Origin: a virus
Reading direction: 5' to 3' (one strand)
DNA length: 35,341 nt
IMG/VR virus record: IMGVR_UViG_3300023178_000142
Location: 1-35,341 of that record
The translations under genes and the position numbers were made by a program. How positions within the stretch are numbered: the first letter of the stretch is position 1; the number at the start of each line of letters is the position of its first letter. This document shows, piece by piece, positions 9,865 through 33,439 of the stretch. Below the pieces are notes generated by a model. The model worked only from the letters and a program-made list of their open reading frames with translations, was not told where the DNA came from and made no database searches.

Positions 9865-9886
9865 TTTGATTCCTCGTAGTTTATGT

Positions 9887-9894
9887 TATTTATC
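9887..9894 (-). promoter_or_regulatory. T4-type late promoter box (GATAAATA) before the 507-aa fibre gene
   Basis: The minus strand reads GATAAATA, one mismatch from the T4 late consensus TATAAATA, in the 33-bp gap after the 630-aa gene and 23 bp upstream of the ATG at 9864. Sequence and distance agree with the three other late boxes in the window. Confidence 0.7.
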
Positions 9895-9897
9895 GTA

Positions 9898-11790: not shown

Positions 11791-13817
11791 TAAACTTCTC
11801 CGACATACATAATGTAATTAAGTGTTAAGAACGGGTTAGTTACATTTAAAGGATCGTTATCTGCTCCGCCTGTAATATCTCCGCTGTTTTCCAATCGTGT
11901 TCCTGATCCTGCATCAAACGATCCTCCTGCTGTAACTTCTGGAGGTACTGTACTGTTTGTTGCTGTTGTTGTTGCATAAAATTGCTCGCCTAGTGAACTT
12001 TGTAGATCGTGTGTGTGACTTGGTAAGTTTGCTTCATCAAGTGTTGTTGTTTCTTCACCTGCAACACCGCCTAATGCATATCCTGCACTATCTGAAATTC
12101 TATTGTTCAATGTTGCTTCCGATCCGTCAAGTTTGCCTAAAATAAATCTACCTCTTAGATCTGGCAATCTAAAGTGTGTTAAATAACTGCTTGGAATACC
12201 GTAAACATGTGTAACTGCATCACTAGTAATTCCTAATGCTGCTGCCAATGCTGCATATTGTGCAAAAGTTAATTCTTGGTTGTTACAGAATTTCCAGCCT
12301 GCTGGTTCATACAATCCTGCATATGGCATAATTGTACCTAAAGGAAATACCGGCAAGTTTGTTATTAAATCGCCATATGTTACTTTATGAACACCAGTGG
12401 TGCTAGTACCATCAATGGTATCTGCTGTCGGTCTGTTTATCAATAACTCGTCAGAGCTAATAATTCTTCCGCCGGCATAGGTAGTTGTAATATCTGTTTT
12501 GTCTGTAAGGAAAGTGCTACTAATTGTTGTATTAAATGTTTTTGTTAACGAACCTGCACCGTTAAATGTAAATCCTGACGAACTTACATCTCCTGTCATA
12601 TTAAATGTAGTAGAACTTACTAGTTCTGATGCTTTTGTAGCATTACCTGTGATACTACCTACAATATTAGTTGCATTAACTGTTCCAACATTTAAATTTG
12701 TTATATAAGCATTTGTATAAGGATTACCAGAAGTACCAATATTATAACTACCTCCAGTATGCTGAATGTTACCTTCAATTACAACATCGCCGTCAACATT
12801 TAAGTTGCCAGTTAAATTTGTATTTGTTGTAATATCTACACTGGTTGCATCTACTTCAAACACTGATGCAACTTGTAATTGCGTACTTGCTTTTATTGTG
12901 CCTGCAACATCTAAATCTACATCAGGATTAGCATTGTTAATACCAACATTGTTATCTGCACTTACACGAATTGCTGGTACATTACTAGCTGTTGTTCTTA
13001 CATCAAAAGTACCTGTACCAACGTGGTTAAGAATACTGTCACTGCCCTCGACATTTAATACAAGTGTTTTAACTTGTCCTACTTCAATACCATTGTTATT
13101 TTTAACTTGCAGTTTGTATGTTGTAACACTAGTTTCGTCATTACGCATAAAACTAGTACTTGGTACTGTTGCACCATTTACAATAAGGTTGTTTGCTTTA
13201 TCTGCTGTACCATTTAAATATGCAGAAATACTACTGTTTAGGTTAATACCTTTTTTAATTATACTAAAACCTGATATTAAAGATTTTGGTGTAAATTCGT
13301 CATCGCTAATAATTGTTATAGGTACATTATTAATATAGTTAACAATAACTGACTTTTCTACATTAGCACTTGAAACAATAATTTCAGTTAACGATCCTGA
13401 TTTATTTGATGAATTGTATTCTGGTCCTACAAGAACCCAGCCGCTGCCGCTGTAAAGATAGAGTTGGCTAGTTTGAGTGTTTACCCACAAATCACCTTTT
13501 ACGCTGTTTGTTGTGTCAGGTTCGCTATCGCCTTTTTTAAGACCGCCAGCACTAACCCAAGCTGTACCATCGTATACTTTAAGTTGATCTACTCCTATTG
13601 TAGTATCATACCAAAGTTGTCCTTCTACAGGGTTACTTGGAGCACTTGTGTTAGCAAAATTTTCTAATAACTGTAAAAAGTTTGTATTAAGTGCTAACCC
13701 ATAATCTTGTTGTAGTCTGCCAACTAAACTTAGACTAGTTTCGTTGTTGACATCTCTGTCTTCAACTGTAATACTACCTTTGTTACTAACATCGGTAAAT
13801 GGGACTTGATATGCCAT
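11790..13817 (-). CDS. Tail fibre protein with C-terminal tail-collar domain
   Basis: A 675-residue fibre. Residues 1-135 are the shared N-terminal module (LSLVGRLQQDYG, LLENFANTSAPS, G-Q-L-W-Y-D, G-D-L-W-V, W-V-L-V-G-P). The shaft has V-G-I-N-N-A-N-P-x-V-D-L-D-V-A-G-T-I near 290-310. From about residue 490, F-P-L-G-T-I-M-P-Y-A-G and PAGWKFCNNQELTF open a phage tail-collar domain. It continues through FRLPDLRGRFILG to the metal-binding-type NLPSHTHD segment, and the chain ends T-L-N-Y-I-M-Y-V-G-E-V. Such ends occur on short tail fibres and some receptor-binding proteins. A 32-bp stretch near its N-terminus (13636-13667) is identical to the 630-aa gene (11612-11643), suggesting recent duplication or conversion. 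It is coupled to the upstream 203-aa gene by TAATG. Confidence 0.82.
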   Translation of the reverse strand: MAYQVPFTDVSNKGSITVEDRDVNNETSLSLVGRLQQDYGLALNTNFLQLLENFANTSAPSNPVEGQLWYDTTIGVDQLKVYDGTAWVSAGGLKKGDSEPDTTNSVKGDLWVNTQTSQLYLYSGSGWVLVGPEYNSSNKSGSLTEIIVSSANVEKSVIVNYINNVPITIISDDEFTPKSLISGFSIIKKGINLNSSISAYLNGTADKANNLIVNGATVPSTSFMRNDETSVTTYKLQVKNNNGIEVGQVKTLVLNVEGSDSILNHVGTGTFDVRTTASNVPAIRVSADNNVGINNANPDVDLDVAGTIKASTQLQVASVFEVDATSVDITTNTNLTGNLNVDGDVVIEGNIQHTGGSYNIGTSGNPYTNAYITNLNVGTVNATNIVGSITGNATKASELVSSTTFNMTGDVSSSGFTFNGAGSLTKTFNTTISSTFLTDKTDITTTYAGGRIISSDELLINRPTADTIDGTSTTGVHKVTYGDLITNLPVFPLGTIMPYAGLYEPAGWKFCNNQELTFAQYAALAAALGITSDAVTHVYGIPSSYLTHFRLPDLRGRFILGKLDGSEATLNNRISDSAGYALGGVAGEETTTLDEANLPSHTHDLQSSLGEQFYATTTATNSTVPPEVTAGGSFDAGSGTRLENSGDITGGADNDPLNVTNPFLTLNYIMYVGEV

Positions 13818-14428
13818 TAGCTTGCTCCTCCGCTAAGGCTTTGAACACGAACTGTATAATCTATTTGGATTAATCTGTTTAGTGATTTTTGAACTGGGTG
13901 AAAAATAACATGAGTTAAAAGTTTCTTTTGACTTTCAACATCGTTGTAACTTATTAAACCTAATTCGTCAAAAACATAAGATTGTTCAGTATCACTAGCA
14001 GTGTCAAATGCGTCTTGGCCGTTTGGTTCGCCGTAATCTAGTAAACAACTTACAACAATATCAGTGTAGTTTGTTCCGCTTATGTGGCGAGTCTCAATCT
14101 TGTTACGTGTTGGGTCGACATTGTTAACAGATCTATCATCAACTACTTTTGTATAAGTTTGATTATACAAACTAGCATTTGTACCAGTACTATTTGGTGT
14201 GAGGTATGTAATAATACCAGTAGGGTCAACGCTAGTTCCGCCATTGCCAAACGCTATTTCGTAAATAAATCCTTGTCCTGCATTTGCTAGACTTTCTGCT
14301 AATGCCACACTCATATTTTCATAGTGAATAGCATTGCGTTTGTCTACAAATACAAACCCAGACTCTGGATTAAAAATTTTAATGTGTCCTTCTATATGTA
14401 CACCTGTTAGTTCATCTGTTTTTTTCAT
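13817..14428 (-). CDS. Accessory virion protein upstream of the fibre genes (unknown role)
   Basis: A 203-residue soluble protein. The first half contains G-V-H-I-E-G-H-I-K-I, a strand pair F-V-F-V-D-K-R-N-A-I-H-Y-E-N-M, then a helix and Y-E-I-A-F-G-N-G-G-T-S-V. I remember this pattern from virion proteins encoded beside the giant structural gene in marine T4-like phages, but no molecular function is known to me. The second half is a beta domain ending I-Q-I-D-Y-T-V-R-V. GAGG stands before the ATG, and a GATAAATA late box 22 bp upstream overlaps the stop codon of the giant gene. As first gene of the 203-675-630 fibre unit, it may join fibres to the baseplate or giant protein, which is inference. 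Confidence 0.65.
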   Translation of the reverse strand: MKKTDELTGVHIEGHIKIFNPESGFVFVDKRNAIHYENMSVALAESLANAGQGFIYEIAFGNGGTSVDPTGIITYLTPNSTGTNASLYNQTYTKVVDDRSVNNVDPTRNKIETRHISGTNYTDIVVSCLLDYGEPNGQDAFDTASDTEQSYVFDELGLISYNDVESQKKLLTHVIFHPVQKSLNRLIQIDYTVRVQSLSGGAS

Positions 14429-14449: not shown

Positions 14450-14457
14450 TATTTATC
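14450..14457 (-). promoter_or_regulatory. T4-type late promoter box (GATAAATA) before the 203-aa/fibre unit
   Basis: The minus strand reads GATAAATA across the TAA stop of the 4660-aa gene (14453-14455), 22 bp before the ATG at 14428. A second looser match, TATAAATG (14439-14446), lies only 11 bp from the ATG and is probably chance. Confidence 0.7.
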
Positions 14458-17400
14458 GTGGTAGTTTTATTGTACTGCCTCTTAGGAATTTAGCGATTGC
14501 TGTTTGGCTATCAGCTAATGTGGTGCCTGGCTCAGTCCAGGTTTTACCCAATTTTCTAAACACTTGTACTCGTTGTCCTGCTGGCGGCACTGTTGCAAGT
14601 TTGATAACATTGTTATCACTTTGTGCTTGTCCTGATGCTGCTGCAAAGCCTGGGTATGCAGTTGCATCAACTCCTGTTAGTTCAGAGCGGTTTGTGTAAA
14701 GAGCAATTTCGTTATCTGCAATAACAGAAACTTCATAAAGATTTCCTGCAAATTCAACATAATCGTTTGGCAAGTTTACTAGTATAACTTTTTCATCATT
14801 AACAAATGTATGATTTTCAGTAAACACTATTTGCATAGGATTAGTTCCTTTGATGTATGCAATTTCGAAACTTTCGTTGTTCAACGAATATTCTGCAGGA
14901 ATAGTTACGTCACCTTCTGGCGAATCTTGAGCAATAATGTCAGTAACAATAGTTTCGCCACTGCGTTCTTCTTGCTGGTACACGCTCGTTGAATGATTGC
15001 GTAGTCTACGTCCTGCTAAGTATACTTCAAACTCATTCAAATTAGTTGGAATAAAGTTTACAACAAGTTTATCAGTTGTACCATCAGTTAATCCAGTAGG
15101 AATATTATATATTGAAGCATTTATACTCACATCTTGATAAGGAATACTTTCGCTAGGTCCTTGGTTGTAAATTTTAGTACCAGTATTGTAAATTAATTTA
15201 GTACCAGTACCTAATGTACTACGACGAAGCTGACGTAGAGTGTTTCCTTGTACTTGATAATATTCAATGCGTTCGCCATCGATAAAGATTACACCAGGAA
15301 TACGCTTGTTTGCATTAGGTAAATCAATTCCTGTAGCATCTTTTAATACAAGACTGTTGTCATAATATCTCAAGTCTTGAGCAAGTTCATAACTGTTCAA
15401 GTCGTTGATACGTTTGTAGTGCGTTCTGTTTAGAATATCTTTAAACTGTCTATAAGCAAATTTTGTTCCAACTCTTGGTGCTGCAAAATGCAACACTTGT
15501 ATGTTGTCACCTTTTTCAGGAGTTTTTGCAAGTTTAACAGTTCTGTTATTGATTATTTTATAGTCAACATCAGGTGATAATAACCAACCGTTGTGAATTA
15601 CCCAAACATAGTTTGAACTAATTGTATCAGACCCTAGCGAAATATATCCACTTGCAACACTGCTCATTTTTTGATTTTCGCTTGTGCCTAGCGGTGCATA
15701 CTGTGATGTATGCACAACATTGTAGGTTATTCTGTCAAATTCATTTACATCATGATTTGAGAATGCCCAAATTTTTACAGGCACTAGCGGACGATCTTTT
15801 AAACTTACAGTTTCAGTATCAACAAATTCGATATTTGTAATTTTTGCTGGTGTACTGTCGTCTCCCATTATTTCAATAGGATCGTCAATTGTGTAGTAAG
15901 CAACCAATTCTGAAACATGTCCTTGAAGTGTAATTGTTACATCGTCGCCATCTTTGACATATGATCTTATTGTAGCATTTAACATTGTACTGTCTGGTAA
16001 CTCAAACTCAATTTGTTCACCTGGAGCAAAGTTGTCAGTTAAGTTAGCAGCATTAGTCATAGTTAATACAGTATCTTGGAATGTATATTCTGCATCCTTG
16101 AGAATATAAATCTCAAGTTTGTCACCTAAGTTTCCGTAATTAACATTTTGTAATCTAACAGAACCATCAACTGCATCCCATACAAACTCATCTTTACGAA
16201 GTTTTGTTCCAGCTAGGTAAACTGCTACATCACCTTTTGCTATAGCATCAGTAGATTCAAACTGCCAAGAATCAATGCTGTATGTTCTTTCTGAAGTCAA
16301 TGTATGTGAAATTTTATATCCAGGATTTAAGAAATTATCACCTACTTGCACAAGAATTTTATGAGTCAACGGCAATTCGTTAAATGGTAAATCAATAGCA
16401 CCATTTACTCCAAATGTATGACTTCTGTTAGAACCATCACGAACAAATGTTTCATCAATTAATAGTTGACTATAAGTTTGTTCTTCAGTATTATAAATTG
16501 CATAATTTATAACGTATCCTAACGGAATGTTTGTAGTAAAGATAATGTGTGCTTTGTTGTTACGGTTTTCAATTGTATAGTTATATCTATCAGTAACACC
16601 ATTTACAGAAACAAATCCACTAATAGGAGTTGTCCAAGTAACACCTGTGTTAAATTGCTGAGTTTTGCCGTCAGCAATAATAGTGTCTGTATCAAGTAGT
16701 TCAGTACCGTTGTGACCAATTGTAGTTACTGATACTGCTGTTCCTTCTGGAATAGCACTACTATCTGTAAACTCGATTTCCATAGTGTTATAGTTTACTT
16801 CATAAGCATCCGAATCAATAGGAACATTATCAAGTTTAACAACCATGCTTGTTACAGTTTGTGGTACATTTTCAAAACCAAAATTAAAAGTATCACCATC
16901 TGCTAGATAATTTCTAGTTGTAAGTAATCCTGTACCACTTGATGCACGTTGATAAACTTGTATATCTAATGTATCGTATACTTGTCCAGGTACATGTTCT
17001 TCAGGACCTTTGTTTGCAGTCGGTGAAATAAATCCATCACCATCTACAACTATTTCTCCGGCATCAATACCTTTTGCAGTTGTATATAAGAAGTCGCCGC
17101 CAGCAAGCTCTGTATCAAGTATACTATTATTAGAAGTAAAGCTGCCGTCGCTTGTGCTTTTACGAATAATAATTACATCACCGTCTGCTGTTGGAACTTC
17201 AGGGTCATAGCCTGCAAGATTAATTTGTGTAGTAATACCGTCACCTGTAATAGTTGGTAACAATGCATTACTGTTTGTTTGCTGCGAAGTTCCAAAATAA
17301 GGATCATCAACACGTATTGCGTCAATTATAGAATCTTGCGAGCCTTTGTAAACATTATAAAGTACGTTTGGTTCTAGAGGTTCTGGTAATTCAAGTATTT

Positions 17401-20400
17401 GTGTACTACCATCTAATCTAAACACATAATCTTCTGTGCTAATGTCTGCTTCATCAAATGCAGAGTAACTAAACAGTGTAGTGTCAAATCCTTTTTCGGT
17501 ACCAAAGCCAATGGTATCAATCTGTACACCAGCATAGTCTACACCATCCATTAACTGACCTAAATCTTTGCCTAACATACCAGATGTTGGTTGATATAAA
17601 TCAGGATAGAAAATTCTATCTGCTGCATGTAGCATTGCAGGATCTATCATGTATTCTATCATAACATTATCAGTGTTAGTTGACGGAGCATTAACAAACG
17701 ATACAACACCTTTGTATCTTCTGTAACCTTTGCTCAAATCAATTTGGTTGTAAACTTCGTATTCACTTGAAAGTGATTCAACACCGTTAACATAAACTTT
17801 AATTTTGTTAACATTTAGATACATTGGATATTCTAATACAAATTCGGTAGTGGCACCAGTTCCGCTAAATGTTTCAGTTTTGTTAACATTTGTTATATCA
17901 AATTGACCTGTGATTCTATCAAACTTGATTAGAACCTTTGTTGCACGTACTTTGCTGTTTCCTAGTATAGGTGTAATAATTGCAGGTACGCCGTCATCGT
18001 CTTGCGGTCCTTCAACAGTAACAGTTGGCATAGTAATATATGTTGCATTATTTGTATCTACAATAATCTTGTTTATAGAACCATTACCAATAGTTGCACG
18101 ACCTTGAAGTGTTGGGCCGTTGCCTCCGCTGATTGTAACAACAGGTTCTGATTGCCAACCTGTGCCACCGTTTGCAATAACAAAGTCTGTGATTTCAAAT
18201 CCAACATTATCTAACCAATGTTTTTGCGGATATGTTTGTGCTTTATCACTAACAAACAATATCTGGCTATCAATTACTTTGATATCTTCACTTTGAATTT
18301 TTTTAGTTTTACTATTATATGTAGGCTGTAAATCAAAGTCAGTAACGCTAGTCTGTGTTAAGTCTACTTTATCGTAACTGCTCACATATTCACGAACTTT
18401 AGTTTTGTATGGTTTTACTTCGTTTACGTAATCTTGATAATTTGAAAGATTGTCGTTGCGGAATGTAATACGTTGATCTAATTCTCCGACATTGTGTTGT
18501 GCTTTTACAAAACTGGTTTTCATTACCCAATCTACTGTAGGTTGCTCTGCAAGCACATATCTAACACTGCTAAAGAATAGCTTATTCCATTCAACTGACA
18601 ATTCATTTACAAAAATATTATTTTGTAAAGTCTCCATGATAATTCTTATTTCAGCTGTTGGTTCTCTATCGTAAAGAACTGCATCATAAATTTGATTATC
18701 AAAACCACTTTCTACATTGTTAAACAGAAGATTACTAAACTGTATAGTACCATTTTCACGACCAATAGTTTTGTAATTTACAGTATAATCAACTTCTAGC
18801 TGATTGTCAATTTTTTCAAGCAATAACCAACCGCCCGATCCAATTGTTTCAATCTTAACAATATCACCTAAGTCGTCATTTAATCCATCAAGTGCATAGC
18901 TTCCCGGAATAACGTGATCAACATTAGTTAATTCACTATAACCAGTTGCGTACCAATCAATGTACTGCCAATAATAATCAACATCGTATCCTTGAATTTG
19001 TATTCTGTTCCATTCTCTAGATGTTGTATTGTATGTATACAAGCCCCAGAACCCGCCAACTGTACTATCAGAGCTAACAAGTATTGTAAACGGTCTTACA
19101 ATTGCTCTTGTTGTTCCAAGATAATTTTTACCGCCATTTACAACAACTGCTCTAGTAATTTGTCCTAAGTTGTTGATGTAAGTTTGTATTTTAGCACCTG
19201 TACCAGAGCCAACTACTTCAACTGTTGGACCTTTACGCACTGTGCTTGTTCCATCAACATACGATGTATCCTTGTATCCTCTTCCTGGATTGGTAATAGT
19301 TACACCAGTAATAGTTCCGTCAGTGATAACTAAATCAAGTGTTGCACGTTCTAAACGTGCTGTACCAACAAATCTAATTAAGTTTTCTGATTCAACAATT
19401 TCATCATAGCTATTTGAATAGATACTCGGAGGCAATTCGTATTGTGTTAACGGTGAAATATCATAATTGTCTACAATAAGATAATTTTTAAGTGTACTGT
19501 TTACACGTTCAACAATTTGTTTTAGTGCTTCAGTCTTGTTAACAAACATACTTTGGTTTGGCTGATCTAGTACGCCATAACGTCTTGCTATACTTACATC
19601 CAAGTCAGGAAGTTGATTTCCTACTTGGTCGTAACCAACTAAACTGTCGATCCATTTTTTAACAAGTTTTTGATTTGGTAAACTTGTTTCCAAACCTTCG
19701 GTCACAAGCTGATACTCTCTATGAATATGATTTTCACTAATTTCATTTGTGTCATCATATTCAAAGTGTATAATTGTATTTTTATCGTTTATTAAACTTC
19801 TGCAATTATATAATGCAAATTCTCCGCCTGCAAAAATACCAATAAATCTATATCCTTGGCCTGCTGGATCTTGAATTAATTGAGCAATATCGTACGAACT
19901 TAATGTTCTATTTGGAGTATATGTAGAAATTACTTTTTTATTCTTAACCCAGAAGTAGTATTTTGCACCGAATGTTCCAGTAATTGGATCATAAATTGTA
20001 GCTCTGCTATATCTGTTGTCGCTGTATTTTGTTGTACCGCTTATTCCGTCAGCAATACCTATGTTGGTATCTGCAAGATTATCCCATTCACTAGGAGATA
20101 AATCGCTTTCAACCCATTCGTACACATCGATGCTAAATCCTGGTAACAACTTATTCCAGTTGTTTGCACTGTAATCAATGTCATCTTGATAAGGGTTGTA
20201 CCATTTTGCGGTGCTTAAATCCCACCATACTTTTCCAACATAATCACTTGACCAAACATTTTTAGAACCAGTAGTAGATGCATTAACATTATACACTGCT
20301 GGGTCATAATGCAATTTCCAGTTTATTTCTTGATCGGCAACACCTGCAATCTTACCTTGAATTGGATCAATTACATCTAGGTATGTTATTAAATCACCAG

Positions 20401-23400
20401 TAACTTTGTCATACAAAAAGACATTTTTAATTCTGTCATATTCAGGAAAGTCTTTTGCTACACCAATTTGTTTCCAACTATTTTCAGTTTTGCTACGACT
20501 TAAATCAATTACTACGCCAAATTCGTTAGATACGTATTCAACATCTGGCAAACTTAAAATAACATGATTGTTATTAAACAGTATCTGAGGATTAGTTGAA
20601 GTGCTTAAATCTCTTTTATATCTTATTCCACCATCAATGTAATAACTATTATATTCTAATGTCTCACCGTATACAAGTACATCGTTGATGCTGTTGTAAA
20701 CATAAACTTGATTGTAGTTTCTTTCAGTGTCTACAATCTGAGTTGAGAACGAATCAAAATATGTTTCTGTATTATCAAAAATAGTATAATCGTTGTTAAT
20801 ACCATTTGTACTTAGAACAACTAAATCGTTGTTGCTAAACTTAACAACATGACCAAATCTTTCATTTAAACTTGCAACTGGAGCATATAATGTTTGAGAT
20901 AATTCAAATTCTCCTAATGCAGTATTGTATGTATAAACATATACTGCACCCGAATCTAGACCATTAGTGTCACTAGAAACTGCACCTACTGCAATTTTTG
21001 ATCCAGTTTCGTTTATACTTGATGATATACCCCATTCTTCGTCTGCATTAACTGAATTAATTGTTTCATAAAATTTGTATCTGTTTTCTTGTTTTCTATA
21101 AACGTTTAATTGGTTTTCTTCTGTAACTGTATTTTTACTTAGAATTATTAATACTTCACCATCTTTGCTAACATCAAAAGTTTTACCAATGTTTGTTGCG
21201 TCATTGTATGTAGTACTATCAACATCGCCGTCGAGAATATTAACAATAGGTAGATATCCTAGTCTATCAATATCTGCGTCAACTAATTCCCATGCAGGTA
21301 ACCCTGTCCATCCACCTGGAGCAACATTAACAGTTGCTTGATAGATAGAACCATTGTAGTAAACTTTTTCATTTGCTAGGTATGAGTACGATGCATTGTA
21401 ATCGCCTCTGTATGTTTCGTCAACACTGTTACCAAATTTATCGTCTCCGTATGGCTTGTCAAACAAGTATATTCTACCGTCATTCTTTTCTGAACGAACA
21501 AATAAGTTGTAAGTTAAGATAGTGTTAATGCTACTCTTAATACTTAGACCAAATTTTTCATTTGCAGACGGATACGATGACATTATAGTTTGAACTAATT
21601 CAAACTGACCATTCAATGCTTTTTTGTAAACATGAATCATTCCTTGGTCAGCAAGTCCACTGCCTGTACCGTCAACATCAGGTTCTAAAATTTCTACTCT
21701 TGCCCAGTCTTGGCTTTCAAGATGTACTGTACTTCCATCTTCAGGAAGATCAATTAGTGCTCTCCACAGTGTTCCTCTGTCGCTAACAATATCGCCAGCA
21801 CTATAAGCACTGCCTGGTGTAATTTCTCCAACATATCTACTTAATACGTTTGATGCATATGGAGCACCTACAAACAGATATTGTCCATCAGCAGTTATAT
21901 CTACACTTGTACCAAACCCAGTATCAGGATCAGAGAACAAGTTTGGATAATCAATAATTTGACTTTGAACATAACTTCCTAGTTCACTACTACGACTATA
22001 AACAACTACTTGGTTTGAATTTTTTTTGCCTATTGCTAAAATTGTATTACTACTGTTTCCGCAAATAGCATCACCAAATGATCTATCATTATCGCCGTTT
22101 GGTAATTCTTGTTTTTGAGAGTAAGCAAATTGATTTTCGTATGTGGCAAACTTTTCATCGCCTGTGTTATCAATCCAAATTTTGTCGCCGGCTGTAACAC
22201 CTTTGTTTATAAACAATGTATTTGCATCATCAAGTTTTTCAAGTCTTTTTGATAGCATTTGAGTTACAACACCTGTTGTACTATCGCTAAGGTCTTTACT
22301 ACTATCAGTAAGAGGTGTGTTTAGTGCAAACTCAACATAGTTAGGACCTTTTGCTGTAACAAATCTAAATCCATCTACTTCAGAATTTATTTGTCTTAAA
22401 CCTACTAAATCGTCTACTTCAAATTTTATATTTTTATTAAAGGTTGCTCTAAAACCTGTGTCAGTGCTGTCAATTCTAATAATACGAGCAGGTACAATTA
22501 CATGCTGATATACATTCCATGTATTTTTGTAATCGGGTACCCAAACGCAATCACCAATATTAACACCAGTAATATCCAATGCTAAAATATCATTAAATGT
22601 TTTAGCAATAAAATCTATCTGATCAAGTTTTACATATCCAGCAGTTTTGCTTACTTCGTCTGGTGTAAATTTTACAGGCAACGGAGCATTATTGTAGTTT
22701 TCTGGTTTTATGTAAACATCTTTACTTGGATATTGATATGTTAAATCTGTTCTAGTATTATCTACATTTTGTACCAGTTGCAATAACTGTGGTTCTATGC
22801 GGAATTTCGATTCGTCTAGTGCTAATTCAAACTCTTTATAAGTGTCAGTGTTTCCATACTGTCCAACACGGAATGCCCACTCTTCATAGAATTGTAAACT
22901 ATCTCTATCAGCACTGCCTAACTTATCAAACAATTTTGTAAGTGCATTGTTAGTACCCTTGTCTTGAATAAATCCTTGATAGAATTTATATTGGCTAATA
23001 TCGTCAGTTATGATATTGCCAAGGTATTCACGTTTTTGATAGCCAATTAAATGCTGTGCAAGTCTTTGTTGCTCACTATCAAAATTGTCAGTGTCTAAAT
23101 CATAAAAATCGGCAAATTGTTTTACACGATAATCCCAGTTAGGTTTTAACGCACTTTCTGGTTTTTCTGGTAATCTATTAAAGTTTGTATCTTCGAATAC
23201 TTCAGTACCAGTGTGTGTATTTTTTGCTGAATAATAAAATTCTTTGTATTTTACTAGATCACCAATTGTGTAATCTTGGTATGGTTCCCAATCTGTTATA
23301 ACAACATCATCAAGAATAAATCCTGGAATATTTAATGTACCATTCCACTCATCGGTTCTATAACCTGAAACTTTGATACGTTCTTGTCTATACCCAGCAT

Positions 23401-26400
23401 TAGGATCATAAATGGTATCATTGAATACTGTGGTATTGTCAATTAACACCACATGTTCTGTTTGCACTAGTAAAAGTTTTGCAAAATAAATTCCTTGTTC
23501 GGTGTTAACTGGTATTACACTAAATTGTGTACTGTTGTCTCTATTAATATTGCTAAAAGAAGATGTAATTTGATTTCCATTTTCATTTAACAATCCATAA
23601 CCAAACTTGCCTTGATGTACATCATATACTGTGTAATAATTTCTACTAAACACTAGTTTATTAGCAGCCGGACTTAATGTAATAATTGTTCCTGCTGCCC
23701 AATTCTGTGTTGTCCAGAAAAGGAATTCTTTGGAAATTTGTTTCCAGTTTTCGATAACATTGTATTCACTGTTAAAGTAATCAAAAACAAATCCTTGATA
23801 TTCTAAGTATTTTCCGTATCCTAAAAGGAAATCTATCAAGTCTTGAACATTGTTAAACTCAGTACCATATTGTAATACTGTAGGTTTTTCTTCAAATGTT
23901 TTTCTAAAATAAGCTGTAACACCACCAAACACTGGAAGTTCTTTTAAACGTGAAAAATTCGAATTAACAAAACTTGTTGTTGTAGTATGTGTAGTTGTTG
24001 CTCTATAAAACTGATTGTTGTATCTTACAACTTTACCTGCAACAATAGTTTTACCTTCTGACCACTCAATATAACTTTCGCTGATTCCACCTACTGTTGA
24101 TGATGGATCAACTTGAGTCGGAACAGCTCTAAAATATTTAAACACAGGATTTTCAATATCGTATCCTTTTACCTTATAACCTTTAGATGTTTTTTCAACT
24201 ACAACACCACTGTAATTTACAATTTCAACAGGACTACTTGTAGTGAGTTTTATTTTATAGTTCTCACTAGGTACAAATACGTTTCCTTTGTTTAATGGAG
24301 TTCTGCTATCAAGTATAAGTTTTAGTTTTTCTTTTTCTGCAAAACCAGCAAGTTTAAATGCCATTTTTTGATTTAAATTTGTTAGTTCTTCAATGTATGA
24401 TTGCATAGTTGTATCAACATTGGTGTATATTGCTTCTGCAATCCAATTTACTAAACCTGCTGTATACACAACATTATTGTTGTTTTTAGTTTTTGGAAAT
24501 ACTAAATCTTTGGTTCTTAATCTTTTTTCAGTATCTTCGTAAACTAACTGACCTACAAAATTTCTCTTGATTCTGCTTCTGTCAAATGTTAAGCCAAACA
24601 CTCTTGCTGGTCTTAAAACAATTAAAGCCATCATTAAGGAATATGGATAGTCGCTGCTGCGTCTCCACGCAGTTTCAACTGGTGCACCGTCACCGAATGC
24701 AAAACTTCTAGTTTGTGTTCTAAAACTAAATTCTTTTGCATAACCAGAATCTAACGGACTTATTAATTCGCCGTATTCGTTTACAGGTATATTGTTTACT
24801 AGGCCAGGACGTAGATATTTTTTGTTTCTAATAACTGCTTTGCCTGGCTCTCTGATTACACCTTTTTCAAGATCTTTCCAAAGTATTAAATTATCTTTAG
24901 TATACGGTGCAGGACCATAAACATCAGTCCACCAGCTAGGCATAATGCTAAATCCTAGCATTTCCCAAGGATGTGTATGTGGACGATCTGTGTCAAATGC
25001 ATTTTTATAAACTTCTCTCCAGAAACCCGGAAGCTGTTGTCCTTGTGCATTTACACAACGACTGTAATTATATGTAAAAGTTTCACCTTCTTGTATAATA
25101 CTTCCATCGGTATAGTTTAGATTACCTGCTTTTCTTGCCCACTTAATAAATTCGCTGATTAATATATTGTTTATTTGTGAATGTGTAATTCCAGTATTTC
25201 TATAGAACGAAGGTACATAATCAGCAATATCAAATATACTTGGATTGTATTCAACTTTGATATTGTTAAAAATTCTACGTTCAAGTTCTATTAATAAATC
25301 ATCTCTGTAATCGCCATATGCAATAGTAATACTACCGTCGTGACCCCTAATAACTTCTACAGGTTCTGCATAGCTAGTATCTACAAACTTTTCTGGAACA
25401 TACTTTGGATATATTCCTAATACACTAGGTGTTTGCGGAATATAACTTGCTTCAGTATTTTCGTATTCGTTGATAGTAACAATATCATCATCGGATAATG
25501 TTGCAGTAATTAATACAAATCCTTCGTCAGTAAATGTGTAATCCACACCATGTACAAGTTGTTCACCGTTTAAGTAAACATACACTGCTTTGTTTGTTAA
25601 TGAATTTAAATTAAATGGTGTGCTTAATGCAAAATAAGGATTTCTATAATCTAAAACTGTATATTCTAATTCTTTGTATCCGCCGAAACCGATCATGTCA
25701 GAACTGTAAAACGGCATTGTTTTTGCTTTTGTTTTAACATATTCTTTCATTACCAATTCAAACATCTTTTTAGATGTTGTATCAACACCAATGTTTTCAG
25801 CAATTTGAATTAAAGACTTTTTAAACTTTGAATATTCATCTTTTGCAAAAATGATTGATTTTAGTATGTCTGCATTATCGTCTGCTAAATGATACAGCGG
25901 CAAATTGATAGGACCGCTGTGTTGAACAAACTTAGTTCCGTAAGACGATACATTTCCTAAATCACGTAAATTATTTGCACCTGGCTGTATGCCTACAAAA
26001 TTATTCAAGTCTTGAGTGATGCTGGTTATATGTTCGTTGATTTGACCAAATGTAAACTCTGATAGATTGTTGTTTAATGGATTGTTTTCAAAGTTGCTAG
26101 GTATCTCATAATAACCGTTATCGTTTTTATCAGCAGTAGTATATGTTTTTATAACAACAATATCTGTTGATTCGAGATCTGCGGTTAACACAACTCTACG
26201 TGTTGTATTAACATTTACCAATGAGTAATCAACACCTTCAACTAGTGTATCGTTATTTTTATAAACTTTAACAATTAAGTCTGTTAAACTAGCACTGTTA
26301 TTATAAACGTCAATTGGCAAGTTGTTTACACGTTCTTGACCTGTAAATCTTTGAACCACAAATTGTCTGCTAAGTGTGTGGGCTTTTGTCCATCCGTTAG

Positions 26401-28435
26401 CATATTCAAAAGTATCTCCGTCTTCATTATAAATTTTAAAAAATCCAACATCGCTATTAATTGTATATGTTTGTTGATTAACTTTATACGAATACATATC
26501 AGTTTGAATATTGTTATCAAATATAATGTCTCCACTGTTTACTAGGTTTTTGTAAACCAATGGAAATCCTAGTTCAACATCATTTACACCTTCGCCTTCT
26601 CTATAAGAGAAAATTTTGTTTCCTTTAAAATCAGTAGCATCATAGTAATTTGTATCGCTAAAACTAATACCGTTTTCGTCATACAAATCAAACATAATAG
26701 GTTGGTTAACTTTTGTTTTATCTTGAGCCATTACCCATTCTGTACCATTATACCAGAACATACGGCCAGCATAATCGTTACCTGAACGAATTAAAACTGT
26801 TTCGTCCTCAAAAGGTAATGCATCCTCATCTTCGATTAAACTTATTTGATAATTGTTTAGATGTCTTATAAATGTAACTTTATAGATTTTTCCGTTGACC
26901 ATTGAATCAGGATCTGCTACAAATAATACACGCATACCTTCAACTAGTTCAACTCCATCAACATAATGTCCTATACTTCCTTCAATGGTGCTAAAAACAT
27001 CTTTTGTATATGTGTCTATTAAGTCAACTGTGTTTTTCTTCTTAGTACCATGATTTAACAATCTGATGCCGGGTTCAAATTCAATAATAGGACGTTTGGC
27101 TCTAGCACTTTGATCTAAGTCCATTAATTGATTGTTAATTTCTGCACTTTTTGCAATAACGTCTTTGTGGAACCAACGATTATATCTTGACCATGCATTT
27201 TTACTACTATCTGTTCTTGCCATTACAATGTAATCTTTAGTACCTGCATAGCTTTTTGCATCACTAAAAGGAACACGATCAAACCCGTTTGTATCAAATG
27301 GAATTACAGTGTCTTGTGTAAACACTGCTGGAACTTGCAAGTCAGTAACCGGTACCAACGAAATACCAGAACCAACACCTTCTACATAATAAAACCCAGT
27401 TGCATATGTCTCTGGTGTTACATTGCCAATAAAATACACTTTCATACCATTTGACAACGACCAACCGTCGCTGGTAGTATAAGTTTTTTTACCAATAATT
27501 TCTGCTTCAACATCAATTACACTGTTTTCTTCAATGTTAAAAACATCAAATGCACAACTAGTATCTAAATCAAATTGACTTACAACATATAATGTATCTG
27601 GTGCATTTTCAGGGATTGTAAATTCTATTACACCTTTTTCAATGTATCCATCTTCAATAAAATATTCAGGTTCAATTAACGGATCTAATTCAGGATATAG
27701 TGTAACACCTTCTGTGTAAAGTGTTGAAATTAACGAAATGCTTTCGCTTAAAGGATCAGGCTTAACACTACGACTAGTTGCAATACTAATTGGACTACCG
27801 TCTGTGTTTACTTCAAAACGATATGTTTGTCCTCTGTATAATTTAATACGAGGATTTCTAGTCTTTCCATCAGGTGTAAAAATTAATGCAGTATTATCAT
27901 CGTCGATAACAGTTTTAATTTGATATGTGCTTGTAATTCCTAGTGCTTGTCCTTTTACAGGTACTTCTTGAGGACCGTTAGGTAACCAATAGTATTCACG
28001 GAAATTACTAAATTTATCAAAATCAATGTGAGGGTTCCAAGTATAAAATTCTTGTTCGTTTAATTTGCTATGGTTAGCAGTAGTACCTTTATAAACATTA
28101 ACTAGTCCGATTAGATCTTTGTAGTCTTTGTAAAACTTTGCATTTCCAAACTTATCTTCGTAAACTGTTGCTGGTTCAAATTGATAGTTGTTTCTAAATG
28201 CATTTATATCATCAACATAATTGTCATCTACTGATACTGCTTTTGCTTCTCTGCGTCCAACAAATCCACTAAGTTTTTCAACAACACCAGAATTAGCGAA
28301 CTGGTCTAATGTACTACCTAAGAACTTTTTGTTTGCATCAGTTCTAAAATAACGAGGTAAGAATTCACTAGTCTGTCTTGGGTCATTCTTTCCTGTTGGT
28401 AGTGGATATTCGTTCTGGTTATCGTTGTATGCCAT
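14453..28435 (-). CDS. Giant 4660-residue modular virion structural protein
   Basis: One uninterrupted frame of 4660 codons, about 0.5 MDa. The N-terminal 175 residues (EFLPRYFRTDANKKFLGSTL, then WNPHIDF and REYYWLPNGP) match what I remember of huge structural proteins in marine T4-like phages. A second conserved block lies near 1142-1232 (DTDRPHTHPWEMLGF). Four short modules resembling CBM5/12 carbohydrate-binding folds (Y-x-x-G-D-x-V with x-Y-x-A) sit near 1458, 1718, 2205 and 2348. Residues ~2110-2560 contain FG-GAP-like beta-propeller blades (F-G-T-S-V-D-I-T-A-D-G-Q-Y-L-F-V-G-A-P). At least eight beta modules of type V-x-V-x-x-N-G followed by G-x-D-Y recur near 722, 948, 3545, 3862, 3939, 4025, 4272 and 4465. 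No protease, lysozyme or membrane segment was recognised. The ATG is joined to the gp6-like gene by TAATG. A peripheral baseplate or long-fibre role is inferred. Confidence 0.8.
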   Translation of the reverse strand: MAYNDNQNEYPLPTGKNDPRQTSEFLPRYFRTDANKKFLGSTLDQFANSGVVEKLSGFVGRREAKAVSVDDNYVDDINAFRNNYQFEPATVYEDKFGNAKFYKDYKDLIGLVNVYKGTTANHSKLNEQEFYTWNPHIDFDKFSNFREYYWLPNGPQEVPVKGQALGITSTYQIKTVIDDDNTALIFTPDGKTRNPRIKLYRGQTYRFEVNTDGSPISIATSRSVKPDPLSESISLISTLYTEGVTLYPELDPLIEPEYFIEDGYIEKGVIEFTIPENAPDTLYVVSQFDLDTSCAFDVFNIEENSVIDVEAEIIGKKTYTTSDGWSLSNGMKVYFIGNVTPETYATGFYYVEGVGSGISLVPVTDLQVPAVFTQDTVIPFDTNGFDRVPFSDAKSYAGTKDYIVMARTDSSKNAWSRYNRWFHKDVIAKSAEINNQLMDLDQSARAKRPIIEFEPGIRLLNHGTKKKNTVDLIDTYTKDVFSTIEGSIGHYVDGVELVEGMRVLFVADPDSMVNGKIYKVTFIRHLNNYQISLIEDEDALPFEDETVLIRSGNDYAGRMFWYNGTEWVMAQDKTKVNQPIMFDLYDENGISFSDTNYYDATDFKGNKIFSYREGEGVNDVELGFPLVYKNLVNSGDIIFDNNIQTDMYSYKVNQQTYTINSDVGFFKIYNEDGDTFEYANGWTKAHTLSRQFVVQRFTGQERVNNLPIDVYNNSASLTDLIVKVYKNNDTLVEGVDYSLVNVNTTRRVVLTADLESTDIVVIKTYTTADKNDNGYYEIPSNFENNPLNNNLSEFTFGQINEHITSITQDLNNFVGIQPGANNLRDLGNVSSYGTKFVQHSGPINLPLYHLADDNADILKSIIFAKDEYSKFKKSLIQIAENIGVDTTSKKMFELVMKEYVKTKAKTMPFYSSDMIGFGGYKELEYTVLDYRNPYFALSTPFNLNSLTNKAVYVYLNGEQLVHGVDYTFTDEGFVLITATLSDDDIVTINEYENTEASYIPQTPSVLGIYPKYVPEKFVDTSYAEPVEVIRGHDGSITIAYGDYRDDLLIELERRIFNNIKVEYNPSIFDIADYVPSFYRNTGITHSQINNILISEFIKWARKAGNLNYTDGSIIQEGETFTYNYSRCVNAQGQQLPGFWREVYKNAFDTDRPHTHPWEMLGFSIMPSWWTDVYGPAPYTKDNLILWKDLEKGVIREPGKAVIRNKKYLRPGLVNNIPVNEYGELISPLDSGYAKEFSFRTQTRSFAFGDGAPVETAWRRSSDYPYSLMMALIVLRPARVFGLTFDRSRIKRNFVGQLVYEDTEKRLRTKDLVFPKTKNNNNVVYTAGLVNWIAEAIYTNVDTTMQSYIEELTNLNQKMAFKLAGFAEKEKLKLILDSRTPLNKGNVFVPSENYKIKLTTSSPVEIVNYSGVVVEKTSKGYKVKGYDIENPVFKYFRAVPTQVDPSSTVGGISESYIEWSEGKTIVAGKVVRYNNQFYRATTTHTTTTSFVNSNFSRLKELPVFGGVTAYFRKTFEEKPTVLQYGTEFNNVQDLIDFLLGYGKYLEYQGFVFDYFNSEYNVIENWKQISKEFLFWTTQNWAAGTIITLSPAANKLVFSRNYYTVYDVHQGKFGYGLLNENGNQITSSFSNINRDNSTQFSVIPVNTEQGIYFAKLLLVQTEHVVLIDNTTVFNDTIYDPNAGYRQERIKVSGYRTDEWNGTLNIPGFILDDVVITDWEPYQDYTIGDLVKYKEFYYSAKNTHTGTEVFEDTNFNRLPEKPESALKPNWDYRVKQFADFYDLDTDNFDSEQQRLAQHLIGYQKREYLGNIITDDISQYKFYQGFIQDKGTNNALTKLFDKLGSADRDSLQFYEEWAFRVGQYGNTDTYKEFELALDESKFRIEPQLLQLVQNVDNTRTDLTYQYPSKDVYIKPENYNNAPLPVKFTPDEVSKTAGYVKLDQIDFIAKTFNDILALDITGVNIGDCVWVPDYKNTWNVYQHVIVPARIIRIDSTDTGFRATFNKNIKFEVDDLVGLRQINSEVDGFRFVTAKGPNYVEFALNTPLTDSSKDLSDSTTGVVTQMLSKRLEKLDDANTLFINKGVTAGDKIWIDNTGDEKFATYENQFAYSQKQELPNGDNDRSFGDAICGNSSNTILAIGKKNSNQVVVYSRSSELGSYVQSQIIDYPNLFSDPDTGFGTSVDITADGQYLFVGAPYASNVLSRYVGEITPGSAYSAGDIVSDRGTLWRALIDLPEDGSTVHLESQDWARVEILEPDVDGTGSGLADQGMIHVYKKALNGQFELVQTIMSSYPSANEKFGLSIKSSINTILTYNLFVRSEKNDGRIYLFDKPYGDDKFGNSVDETYRGDYNASYSYLANEKVYYNGSIYQATVNVAPGGWTGLPAWELVDADIDRLGYLPIVNILDGDVDSTTYNDATNIGKTFDVSKDGEVLIILSKNTVTEENQLNVYRKQENRYKFYETINSVNADEEWGISSSINETGSKIAVGAVSSDTNGLDSGAVYVYTYNTALGEFELSQTLYAPVASLNERFGHVVKFSNNDLVVLSTNGINNDYTIFDNTETYFDSFSTQIVDTERNYNQVYVYNSINDVLVYGETLEYNSYYIDGGIRYKRDLSTSTNPQILFNNNHVILSLPDVEYVSNEFGVVIDLSRSKTENSWKQIGVAKDFPEYDRIKNVFLYDKVTGDLITYLDVIDPIQGKIAGVADQEINWKLHYDPAVYNVNASTTGSKNVWSSDYVGKVWWDLSTAKWYNPYQDDIDYSANNWNKLLPGFSIDVYEWVESDLSPSEWDNLADTNIGIADGISGTTKYSDNRYSRATIYDPITGTFGAKYYFWVKNKKVISTYTPNRTLSSYDIAQLIQDPAGQGYRFIGIFAGGEFALYNCRSLINDKNTIIHFEYDDTNEISENHIHREYQLVTEGLETSLPNQKLVKKWIDSLVGYDQVGNQLPDLDVSIARRYGVLDQPNQSMFVNKTEALKQIVERVNSTLKNYLIVDNYDISPLTQYELPPSIYSNSYDEIVESENLIRFVGTARLERATLDLVITDGTITGVTITNPGRGYKDTSYVDGTSTVRKGPTVEVVGSGTGAKIQTYINNLGQITRAVVVNGGKNYLGTTRAIVRPFTILVSSDSTVGGFWGLYTYNTTSREWNRIQIQGYDVDYYWQYIDWYATGYSELTNVDHVIPGSYALDGLNDDLGDIVKIETIGSGGWLLLEKIDNQLEVDYTVNYKTIGRENGTIQFSNLLFNNVESGFDNQIYDAVLYDREPTAEIRIIMETLQNNIFVNELSVEWNKLFFSSVRYVLAEQPTVDWVMKTSFVKAQHNVGELDQRITFRNDNLSNYQDYVNEVKPYKTKVREYVSSYDKVDLTQTSVTDFDLQPTYNSKTKKIQSEDIKVIDSQILFVSDKAQTYPQKHWLDNVGFEITDFVIANGGTGWQSEPVVTISGGNGPTLQGRATIGNGSINKIIVDTNNATYITMPTVTVEGPQDDDGVPAIITPILGNSKVRATKVLIKFDRITGQFDITNVNKTETFSGTGATTEFVLEYPMYLNVNKIKVYVNGVESLSSEYEVYNQIDLSKGYRRYKGVVSFVNAPSTNTDNVMIEYMIDPAMLHAADRIFYPDLYQPTSGMLGKDLGQLMDGVDYAGVQIDTIGFGTEKGFDTTLFSYSAFDEADISTEDYVFRLDGSTQILELPEPLEPNVLYNVYKGSQDSIIDAIRVDDPYFGTSQQTNSNALLPTITGDGITTQINLAGYDPEVPTADGDVIIIRKSTSDGSFTSNNSILDTELAGGDFLYTTAKGIDAGEIVVDGDGFISPTANKGPEEHVPGQVYDTLDIQVYQRASSGTGLLTTRNYLADGDTFNFGFENVPQTVTSMVVKLDNVPIDSDAYEVNYNTMEIEFTDSSAIPEGTAVSVTTIGHNGTELLDTDTIIADGKTQQFNTGVTWTTPISGFVSVNGVTDRYNYTIENRNNKAHIIFTTNIPLGYVINYAIYNTEEQTYSQLLIDETFVRDGSNRSHTFGVNGAIDLPFNELPLTHKILVQVGDNFLNPGYKISHTLTSERTYSIDSWQFESTDAIAKGDVAVYLAGTKLRKDEFVWDAVDGSVRLQNVNYGNLGDKLEIYILKDAEYTFQDTVLTMTNAANLTDNFAPGEQIEFELPDSTMLNATIRSYVKDGDDVTITLQGHVSELVAYYTIDDPIEIMGDDSTPAKITNIEFVDTETVSLKDRPLVPVKIWAFSNHDVNEFDRITYNVVHTSQYAPLGTSENQKMSSVASGYISLGSDTISSNYVWVIHNGWLLSPDVDYKIINNRTVKLAKTPEKGDNIQVLHFAAPRVGTKFAYRQFKDILNRTHYKRINDLNSYELAQDLRYYDNSLVLKDATGIDLPNANKRIPGVIFIDGERIEYYQVQGNTLRQLRRSTLGTGTKLIYNTGTKIYNQGPSESIPYQDVSINASIYNIPTGLTDGTTDKLVVNFIPTNLNEFEVYLAGRRLRNHSTSVYQQEERSGETIVTDIIAQDSPEGDVTIPAEYSLNNESFEIAYIKGTNPMQIVFTENHTFVNDEKVILVNLPNDYVEFAGNLYEVSVIADNEIALYTNRSELTGVDATAYPGFAAASGQAQSDNNVIKLATVPPAGQRVQVFRKLGKTWTEPGTTLADSQTAIAKFLRGSTIKLPR

Positions 28436-31400
28436 TATGCATTATCTCCGCCGGTAATAATATATGTGCTTGAGGCTGTGTTACTTTGTACACCTGAATT
28501 TGCAGTAGTGCTACTTGAAATTACTGCACCAGATGCTTGTAATCTGCTTGCTGTGATTGCATCAATAATTTTGATATCGTCAACTGTTGCTGTACTAATA
28601 AAGATTTCGTCACTTTCTGATTTTATTTCATAAAGACTTCCAAAGCTCTGTGTTTCTTGAACTGGAACAAGAACAACACTCACAACATCTGGCGAAAGTT
28701 TATTCATAATATATGTTGATAGTTCTGTAAAATAGAACGTTTCGCCAAAGTCCCAATTTTCTAATGCAAAAAATTCATTTATTGCATCAATTGTTTTTGC
28801 TTTTACTTCGTTGTCGTTTACAATTTTTTCAATATTTTTTACAATTTTAATTTCTGCTTGTAAATCAACACTTGCATTGCTACCAAAAAGTGGTTTGTAT
28901 TTTACTGGATGATAAATTACTTCGTCACTAACACTTTTAATTTTATTAACTTCTTGACCGTAGTTAAGGAATAAATTATCGCTGCTAGGAGGAAGAGGTT
29001 TAGTTGTTGTTTTACCAGAAATCCAATCTCTATAATCATTATCGTATGTTCTTGTTAACAGATATACATCCATGATATTGCTACTACTTGGATCAATTCT
29101 CATTGTATCATCAGCAGCATGTAAATATTCAAATTTAATTCCGCTACGCCCAACAAACGCTTGGTAATCGGCTGTTTGTTCCAGCGTATTAGTTGCAGTG
29201 TTTAATACTTTAAAAATATCTTTTTCTACAAGATAAAAAACAGCACCATCATCATATTGACTAAATGCACCAATCGATGCTTCACTTCTAACCACTGTTA
29301 TATTTTCTGCAACAGCATCAACATAGTTGTATGTTTCTGTCTTGTTTATTGTTGCTTTCTTTTGGAAAATATATTTGGTTAACGGATTTACTGTTGGAGC
29401 AACAAAATGATCAAAAATATCAGGATCGTCAATAACACCATCGTTGTCGCTGTCGTAAAAACCAATTTCTACTTTTTTACTATCAACATATCCTGCACTG
29501 TTTTTGAACTCGTTTTTAATTTCCCATACAAAACTATTAGTAAAACTACTTAAACTATCAGGTTGATTGTTGTTACTCAAAAGAGTAATTTTATCTTTGA
29601 TAACTTTTCCTGTTTTACTGTCATAGATTTTGTTATTGCCATCAAAGTAAAATCTTATACGCTCTTCACTTTCGTAAATGTATCTTGATCCTCTAGATGT
29701 AACTGTGTATTTTTCGCCATCTGTTTCAAACAATAATAACCAACTAGCATCAAGTTGCTGATTTGTGTTATCACCTGTTTTACCTAAACTAAATGGAGAT
29801 ATTGAATTCAAATTTGTGTTTGTAATAACTCTCCAAGTTCTTGTTTCTGTATCGTAACGTAAACCAAAAGTTTTGTAAGCAAATATCTGATCTACTACTT
29901 GACGAGTTACATCAGTAGAAATACTTGTTGTTAATACAGGAATAATTTGTTTAAGAGTTGCTTTAACTAAATCTGTAGACGGAATAATATCGTTGAATAC
30001 AATTGGACCTAATCCTGTATCATTATCAACAACTGTTCCGTTTTCAACAATGCTTATTACTTTAACCCAACGATAAGTTAAGTCACCAACTTCGGTTGGC
30101 GTTCCTGCAACAATTCTATTTCCTCTAAAAAAGTAGCCTGTAGGTGCTTCAAATTTTAATAGTGCATTTGGTTCAATAAAACGCAAAATACTCTGTGTAT
30201 AAGAACTTACACTTGCTTTAAAATTGTTTTCATCTACAAAATAACCTGTGCTTCTATTTGTATCTGTAGTAACATTTACCCAAGTCAAGTTTAACTCAGA
30301 AACTGCTTCTGTTCTAGGGAAGTTTCTAAAGTAATAATTTTTAATTTTATCAGTTTTTAATATAGGTTCAATTTGATTTCTTATAACTGCTTCAATGTCA
30401 GTTCTTGTTGTAAATTCAAATCCAGTATAATCATTTAATGTTTCTTTGTAGATAACACCGTCGTTTCCAAACATTAATGTGTTTGTGTATTTTCCTGATG
30501 CATCACGCAAATCAAAATATCTACTAATACCACTGCTAGTTCTGTTAACTGCTTTTGTTTTAATAATTTCTTGACTTACACTCGAAATACCAACGTTATA
30601 ATCTTCACCTGTAATTAAACGGTTTTGTGTATAGTAAGTACTAGGAGCATTTGCTTTAATGCTTGCTGTTTCTTCGCTGGTTGTACCGTTTGTTACTGTG
30701 TATTTTAATTCTAAATACAAGTTAAGTGTTTCTTCTCTACCTGCTTTACTAATGTAAGGAATTTGCAGGTTGATATTTGTTAAATCACTTGGTAGTATTT
30801 TTAATTGCTTGTTAAGACTGGTTCTATAGTAAAGTTTATATGAACCTTTTGGCAATTCACCAAAAACGCCATCACTGAAAATTAGGCTAATTTTATCATC
30901 TACACGGCTAAGAACACTATATATGGTTCTAATGTTTTTGTTAATGCTGTTGTAGATAATGTTATTGCCTTCAATGCTATCAACTTTAGTCCACAATTCA
31001 CTTTCTAAATTATTGCTGTCAAGTTTGTACAACCAAACATCGCTGTTGTTAATTTTTGTAGTATCAACATTAACTACTGTATTTGGTGTAGGGTTGTTTA
31101 TTGAAAATAAGTTGTTCTGCATTGAACCTTGACGGAAGTGACAGAAAAATCCGCTGTTATTTGATCCTGCACCTTGACCATCATCTCTGTACAAAAATGC
31201 TAGTTTGTTTCCAGGAAACGGTTCTTCTTCATATATTGTGTTATCTTCAAAGTTAGTACTTGTAATTTCAAATCTAACACTGTTGCTATCAATATTTTTT
31301 GTAAAACTATACAAAGGTATTTTTGTACTATTTGCGTTAAATCTGTACTGCTCAGTTAAAACACTATTGATTGTTTCTTTTTTAACCGGACGACCAAATG

Positions 31401-31957: not shown

Positions 31958-32392
31958 TTAAAGAAGACCGTTTGCTTGGTCGAATTTTAGCTGCACAGTT
32001 TCGCTAATATTATAAGGCAAATAGGACAATTGACACTTAACTTCTATGCCACTTTCGTACTCAGAAACTTCAACTTTTTGCACATTTACACGAGGATCAT
32101 AGTTTACAATAGTAGTGACATTTTTAATAATTGCTTCTTTTATTTCGCTGGTCAACGGCTCATATAAAATATCCCAAATTATTGTACCAAATGTAGGATC
32201 ACTGAGTTTTTCACCTTGACGTATATGAAAATGATTAATAATATCCTGCTTGATTAATGCTAAATCGTATAATTTAAAATTTTTAACAGACGAATTAACC
32301 GTACTCAACCCTCTGTACGCTTTTGAACGCACAGGACTATCAACTGTTGGTGAATCGATGGTTATATTTTTATATAATTGTTGCTCTGCCAT
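31958..32392 (-). CDS. gp25: Baseplate wedge protein, T4 gp25-like
   Basis: A 144-residue protein of the gp25/GPW family, close to the 132 residues of T4 gp25. Family features are in place: H-F-H-I-R-Q-G-E-K-L-S-D-P-T-F-G-T near 54-70, W-D-I-L-Y-E-P-L, a helix with E-A-I-I-K-N-V, then N-Y-D-P-R-V and a closing beta hairpin. In T4-like tails gp25 joins the inner wedge near the end of the tube and sheath, and its fold relates to lysozyme-like T6SS proteins without known enzymatic activity. It follows the 336-aa gene by 7 bp and lies just before gp6, an order known from T4-like marine phages. It probably shares the late promoter at 33432-33439. Confidence 0.92.
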   Translation of the reverse strand: MAEQQLYKNITIDSPTVDSPVRSKAYRGLSTVNSSVKNFKLYDLALIKQDIINHFHIRQGEKLSDPTFGTIIWDILYEPLTSEIKEAIIKNVTTIVNYDPRVNVQKVEVSEYESGIEVKCQLSYLPYNISETVQLKFDQANGLL

Positions 32393-33431: not shown

Positions 33432-33439
33432 TATTTATA
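33432..33439 (-). promoter_or_regulatory. T4-type late promoter box (perfect TATAAATA)
   Basis: TATAAATA on the minus strand is identical to the T4 late consensus, overlaps the TAA of the gp5-like gene (33435-33437) and lies 22 bp before the ATG at 33410. It should drive the 336-aa and gp25-like genes. Confidence 0.8.

Follow-up and report, generated by a model that had tools for sequence, protein, structure and literature searches.

The baseplate wedge protein gp7 of phage T4 is a monomer present in six copies per tail; gp10 and gp9 are bound by its domains, which shift position during the baseplate switch (PMC3004832). In phage XM1, gp17 (242 residues), called the orthologue of T4 gp7, links two chains of gp16 (gp6) through a helical core bundle and also holds the tail spikes (PMC10457771). 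According to the genome records, gp7 (gpI) is encoded straight after gp6 (J) in T4, P2 and cyanophages, and cyanophage genomes of 180-250 kb carry gp7 proteins of up to 560 kDa; two of the three cyanophage proteins examined in this slot were annotated as gp7. ORF122 of cyanophage S-CREM2, which occupies the gp7 slot, was detected with 91 peptides (27.2% coverage; PMC10665884). Very large virion proteins have also been described in jumbo phages: phAPEC6 gp245 (381.88 kDa) was identified in the virion by 17 unique peptides (7.6% coverage), beside the 'baseplate wedge' gp244 (PMC7247149), and CBB_236 by 21 peptides (7.72% coverage), beside the baseplate wedge protein CBB_237 (PMC5259590). The mass of phAPEC6 gp245 equals that of 121Q gp582, and detection in the virion by ESI-MS/MS is stated in the record of PA5oct gp355. 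The family to which these jumbo-phage proteins belong (phrog_10938) and its presence in virions are already known, as is the annotation of giant gp7 proteins in cyanophages. No assignment of the jumbo giants to gp7 was found in a literature search that covered few subscription papers.

The window analyzed here, i.e. the whole stretch of 35,341 bases, is a virus fragment containing a giant gene at positions 14453..28435 of the minus strand (the strand of the four neighbors assigned to PHROGs below and of every block and module located within the gene). The initial annotation had described an unbroken frame of 13,983 bp filling 40% of the window, and both statements hold: the frame begins with the ATG at 28435, ends with the stop codon at 14453, comprises 4,660 codons plus the stop, and accounts for 39.6% of the window. 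Many stops interrupt the plus strand across the same interval, and the chance of 4,660 stop-free codons at a GC content of 0.348 is about 10^-134. The deduced protein (P0001; 4,660 aa, 525.5 kDa, computed pI 4.66) does reach the half-megadalton size remarked upon earlier, although such a size is not unprecedented in view of the cyanophage gp7 proteins mentioned above. Comparison with a 98%-identical contig (L112) revealed 29, 16 and 90 changes at codon positions 1, 2 and 3, respectively, over 2,640 codons. A more distant relative (L072) was 44-63% identical at the amino acid level along the entire length, and each tenth of the protein retained 36-63% identity to L072 and L109. Purifying selection thus acts on a conserved giant frame, and the codon-position pattern, together with the identity found in all tenths, indicates that a single frame is maintained throughout.

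In a profile search, P0001 matched phrog_10938, "virion structural protein", over four stretches (E about 0, 1177 bits). Homologues were detected by tblastn in about 60 phage records, from jumbo myophages infecting Pseudomonas, Klebsiella, Salmonella, Erwinia, Escherichia, Agrobacterium, Xanthomonas, Vibrio and other hosts. Ten representative jumbo phages, with homologues of 3,138–4,555 aa, were used for the comparison of gene context: Phosso (4555 aa), Atu_ph07 (4449), PA5oct (3857), SCTP-2 (3807), Vibrio 2.275.O (3771), GAP32 (3341), RaK2 (3326), 121Q (3323), XacN1 (3313) and RAS14 (3138). A scan of IMG/VR yielded at least 600 relatives, carried on contigs of up to 330 kb, so that the window probably derives from a jumbo phage. 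A viral-contig scan seeded with the PA5oct homologue returned no loci. No matches were obtained when the whole P0001 sequence was searched against the PDB, and a Foldseek search of the predicted model of residues 1000-2010 against viral models recovered the protein's own family.

The gene order around the giant gene is that of a baseplate wedge region. Immediately upstream lies the gene for the wedge subunit gp6 (28435..31905; 1156 aa, phrog_10646, E 3e-291), which, like the gp6 of jumbo phages, is homologous to cyanophage gp6 at BLAST level; it is accompanied by genes for the wedge subunit gp25 (31958..32392; phrog_261, E 8e-17) and for a gp5-like hub or spike protein (33435..34934; phrog_13211, E 1e-41). 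The TAATG fusion to a baseplate unit noted initially was confirmed at 28433..28437, with gp6 as the upstream partner (sense strand at the junction of the gp6 stop and the giant ATG: ...AGATAATGCATAATGGCATAC...), and the same one-base overlap was found in 70 of 98 relatives. Among the ten jumbo phages, nine have the giant homologue directly after gp6, usually with gp25 just before gp6; the exception is SCTP-2, whose gp6 homologue lies about 90 kb from the giant gene. Likewise, gp6 was immediately upstream in all 98 marine IMG/VR contigs with at least 300 nt of upstream sequence. The proposed link to the baseplate is thus supported by a position directly after gp6 in all genomes examined but one. 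On the other side, a 203-aa protein (13817..14428; phrog_11259, E 1e-71) has homologues near the giant gene in all ten jumbo phages (33-58% identity) and in each of the 16 marine contigs reaching far enough; this protein is probably a part of the baseplate or a fibre adaptor.

Farther downstream, three consecutive fibre-like genes (8341-13817) are paralogous in their N-terminal parts, at 31-37% identity over 200-290 aa. The first has a phage collar domain (E 5e-14) and the last a weak match to the Peptidase_G2 autocleavage domain (E 6e-4), below the cut-off. Two adjacent virion-like genes (6290-8318; 355 and 303 aa), with no PHROG match, are paralogues of each other (26% identity, E 5e-14). 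The same applies to two overlapping genes at 4208-5879 (27% identity, E 7e-8), glycosyltransferase-like by eye and with no Pfam match. A radical SAM protein (PHROG 5.5e-8) is encoded at 1361-2734, downstream of the fibre cluster; Atu_ph07 (L002:33190-34248) and Phosso (L008:28885) likewise have radical SAM genes downstream of their giant genes.

The claim that the giant is a virion protein is supported through its orthologues, given their detection by mass spectrometry in PA5oct, phAPEC6 and CBB. The size of the protein could also suggest a precursor cut into several virion proteins; a processing site was not found, though one may exist, and the frame is indeed divided into two ORFs in two relatives, L016 (9971-23940, near P0001 residue 2733) and L091 (9989-23990, near residue 380), either through errors or as genuine splits. 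However, a single frame was found in all other complete relatives, and the phAPEC6 and CBB proteomes report one protein, though at a peptide coverage of only about 8%; such processing is considered very unlikely.

Based on the alignment of jumbo-phage homologues, P0001 was divided into conserved blocks and variable regions. Five blocks were conserved: residues 18-180 (27896..28384), aligned at least partly in all ten homologues, 421-900 (25736..27175), 1021-1980 (22496..25375; AlphaFold2 model of 1000-2010, mean pLDDT 75.7), 2641-3000 (19436..20515) and 3180-3360 (18356..18898). The stretches between and after them (181-420, 901-1020, 1981-2640, 3001-3180 and 3361-4660) were mostly unalignable beyond the marine clade, and the C-terminal tail could be aligned in jumbo isolates only at 4251-4410, in PA5oct.

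The modular make-up proposed initially (carbohydrate-binding-like modules, a propeller and a series of repeated beta modules) was supported by Pfam, self-profiles, AlphaFold2 and Foldseek. Modules were located by slice-by-slice profile self-comparison of P0001, in which profiles were compared as slices rather than at full length. This procedure was used instead of an HMM built from the protein's own beta units, which was excluded as circular; a BLAST self-comparison printed no internal repeats. The self-comparison distinguished four CBM-like modules, five FG-GAP-like repeats, GGxGY repeats and eight small beta modules. Pfam PF02839 (CBM5/12) matched P0001 with 47 bits (cut-off 26.2; E 2.5e-12), and the first CBM5/12-like module (residues 1453-1500; 23936..24079) was recovered by Pfam, self-profile and Foldseek. 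Confident PDB matches of the 1000-2010 model were confined to the size of a chitin-binding domain, with about 44 residues superimposed on chitin-binding domains at an rmsd of 1.2-1.9 A. A second copy (1715-1765; 23141..23293) was identified by its self-profile match to the first, and two more were located by self-profile inside the propeller, at 2204-2257 (21665..21826) and 2340-2387 (21275..21418), the latter also matching All3316 of an Anabaena contractile injection system by profile (E 1.3e-4).

The propeller itself, predicted to be of the FG-GAP or integrin-alpha type, spans residues about 2082-2650 (20486..22192). It was detected by Pfam (FG-GAP_2, E 6e-6), by repeats at 2117, 2262, 2413, 2481 and 2573, and by the AlphaFold2 model of 1985-2995 (pLDDT 79.4), for which Foldseek returned integrin alpha chains (E 2e-10, target-normalized TM up to 0.62). 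The "beta-propeller-like core" of the initial annotation is thus borne out as a predicted propeller, but not as a core. The conserved blocks lie elsewhere, and the propeller is a variable module, since the FG-GAP match is shifted about 800 residues further along in the marine relative L057 and none is found by Pfam in the homologues from Atu_ph07, PA5oct and RaK2. GGxGY repeat modules occupy residues 3034-3113 (19097..19336), a self-repeat matching the depolymerase tailspike Dpo31/36 (E 0.0014), and 3414-3478 (18002..18196), which also match repeats of cyanophage gp7. Small beta modules were found at 722-768 (26132..26272) and 951-994 (25454..25585), followed by a C-terminal series of at least six within residues 3522-4482 (14990..17872), located at about 3525, 3860, 3921, 4064, 4271 and 4447. 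Overall, profiles of the module regions weakly matched the Anabaena injection-system protein, tail spikes, integrin alpha-6 and the depolymerase tailspike.

This architecture bears on two other explanations. A tape-measure or internal, ejected protein would also be a very large virion component; the beta-rich modules, the propeller and the carbohydrate-binding-like domains speak against that role, as does the baseplate-wedge gene order, and it is considered extremely improbable. More serious is an adhesin or fibre-like protein attached to the baseplate and forming a long external structure, with the true gp7 being another, unrecognized protein. The modules are of tail-spike and fibre type (the CBM5/12-like ones match tail-spike or fibre chains, and GGxGY a depolymerase tailspike) and the C-terminal tail is variable. 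Yet conserved frame, not variable tip, makes up about half of P0001, the gp7 slot is occupied by the giant in almost all genomes, often with translational overlap with gp6, and separate fibre genes, one of them with a collar domain, are located just downstream. On balance, an adhesin of this kind appears unlikely.

The candidate counterpart of the gp7/gpI core was located at residues 1740-1900 (22736..23218) by comparing 66 slices of P0001 with the cores of cyanophage gp7, P2 gpI and T4 gp7. The stretch QYKFYQGFIQDKGTNNALTKLFDKL (K1826, G1827) lies inside the 60-residue block with the highest conservation (0.75 identity), and the K and G are invariant in the 11 giant proteins aligned. The cyanophage gp7 core contains an FYxSKG(I/T)xxS helix and has a profile match to T4 gp7 724-813 (E 2e-8). 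Its best match among the 66 slices was at P0001 1796-1856 (E 3-4e-4), and the P2 gpI core, independently, at 1823-1842 (E 3e-3), in both cases with K-G in register. Column-shuffled and reversed decoys of both cores all scored below the real matches; the hhalign probability of the individual matches was low (6-16%). The T4 gp7 profile ranked the KG stretch sixth of 66 (E 0.04, not significant), and no P0001 slice had a significant profile match to T4 gp7. One reversed T4 decoy scored 27.7, level with the best real matches. Homology of the KG core to cyanophage gp7 and P2 gpI is thus suggestive only.

None of the T4 Gp7 domains (PF21427, PF21428, PF21456) was found in a Pfam scan of the whole of P0001, and matches to the T4-gp7, gpI and Baseplate_wedge domains of Pfam all stayed below the cut-off. 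A separate second gp7 or gpI gene was likewise not recovered above the cut-off in complete jumbo genomes, in which PF21427 was not found; that search is a weak one, since the annotated gp7 of cyanophage P-SSM2, which also lacks PF21427, equally escapes recognition. No T4 wedge protein was among the PDB Foldseek matches of the 1000-2010 model, in which the core is modeled at low confidence. AlphaFold2 predicted the KG core as helical, with low pLDDT as a monomer (1762-1873), which may fit a segment that folds only together with gp6.

Taken together, P0001 is probably a giant gp7-like baseplate wedge arm, present in six copies per virion and joining the gp6 core to the peripheral fibres. The long external structure on the baseplate suggested initially survives in part: the variable modules probably project outward, but the protein as a whole is better read as a subunit of the wedge frame, in the position of gp7 or P2 gpI. 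By this reading, one copy of P0001 per wedge would pair with two gp6 through the short helical core around 1740-1900, six copies adding up to about 3.1 MDa per virion, and the long flanks would extend from the core as an arm. The five conserved blocks (18-180, 421-900, 1021-1980, 2641-3000 and 3180-3360) would constitute the frame, whereas the propeller and the CBM5/12-like, GGxGY and C-terminal beta modules would be exchangeable surface modules facing the host. By analogy, these modules may hold the fibres encoded downstream, bind weakly to host-surface polysaccharide, or both, and at adsorption the arm could relay the signal to gp6 and gp25 and so set off contraction of the sheath, the part played by gp7 in T4. 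A more far-reaching, rather speculative version, for which the chances seem fairly low, is that a single chain stands in for several peripheral baseplate proteins of T4 (gp8, gp9, gp10 and gp11), with built-in surface-binding modules such as the integrin-like propeller, so that the wedge itself would partly perform primary adsorption.

The giant is among the largest genes of many jumbo and marine phages, annotated merely as 'virion structural protein' or 'hypothetical'. Its assignment to the gp7 slot would give one testable role to a family that occupies 9-14 kb per genome and is abundant in marine viromes, would account for the lack of a recognized separate gp7 in jumbo phages, and would illustrate how a baseplate frame protein can gather exchangeable surface modules. 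What is put forward here as new is the link between the jumbo giants and the gp7 slot, the location of a candidate gp7 core, and the predicted exchangeable integrin-type propeller with CBM-like inserts.

Compared with known systems, P0001 resembles the phrog_10938 giants of jumbo phages (PA5oct gp355, Atu_ph07 gp180, RaK2 ORF070, GAP32 gp230, and likewise 121Q gp582, phAPEC6 gp245 and CBB_236) in family, slot after gp6 and size class, with E values of about 0 and 25-34% identity over the conserved blocks. The propeller insertion (1981-2640) and the greater part of the C-terminal tail cannot be aligned with them, and the CBM-like match of P0001 far exceeds those in Atu_ph07 and PA5oct. The likeness of the propeller to that of integrin alpha concerns the predicted fold and the FG-GAP Pfam match and carries no functional inference; unlike integrin alpha, the P0001 propeller bears CBM-like inserts and belongs to a predicted phage virion protein. 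T4 gp7 (1032 aa), P2 gpI and XM1 gp17 share with P0001 the gene position beside gp6 or J, P0001 being 4.5 to 26 times longer; for P2 gpI the KG motif is additionally in register, although profile support for it is weak, and T4 gp7 has neither Pfam domains detectable in P0001 nor a significant direct match. The cyanophage proteins in the gp7 slot are likewise giant (P-SSM2, 5195 aa; P-HM1, 4446; S-WAM2, 3446). That of P-HM1 (L124 1858-15195) contains a CBM5/12-like stretch and a YHYH domain (E 1e-26), a name that recurs among uncultured relatives of P0001. P0001 and the giant cyanophage gp7 proteins have in common the slot after gp25-gp6, the putative KG-helix core, mobile GGxGY repeats and CBM5/12-like modules, but the core lies within residues 1-300 in cyanophage gp7 versus about 1800 in P0001, and the cyanophage proteins have no frame blocks alignable with those of P0001 and are followed by gp8 next downstream.
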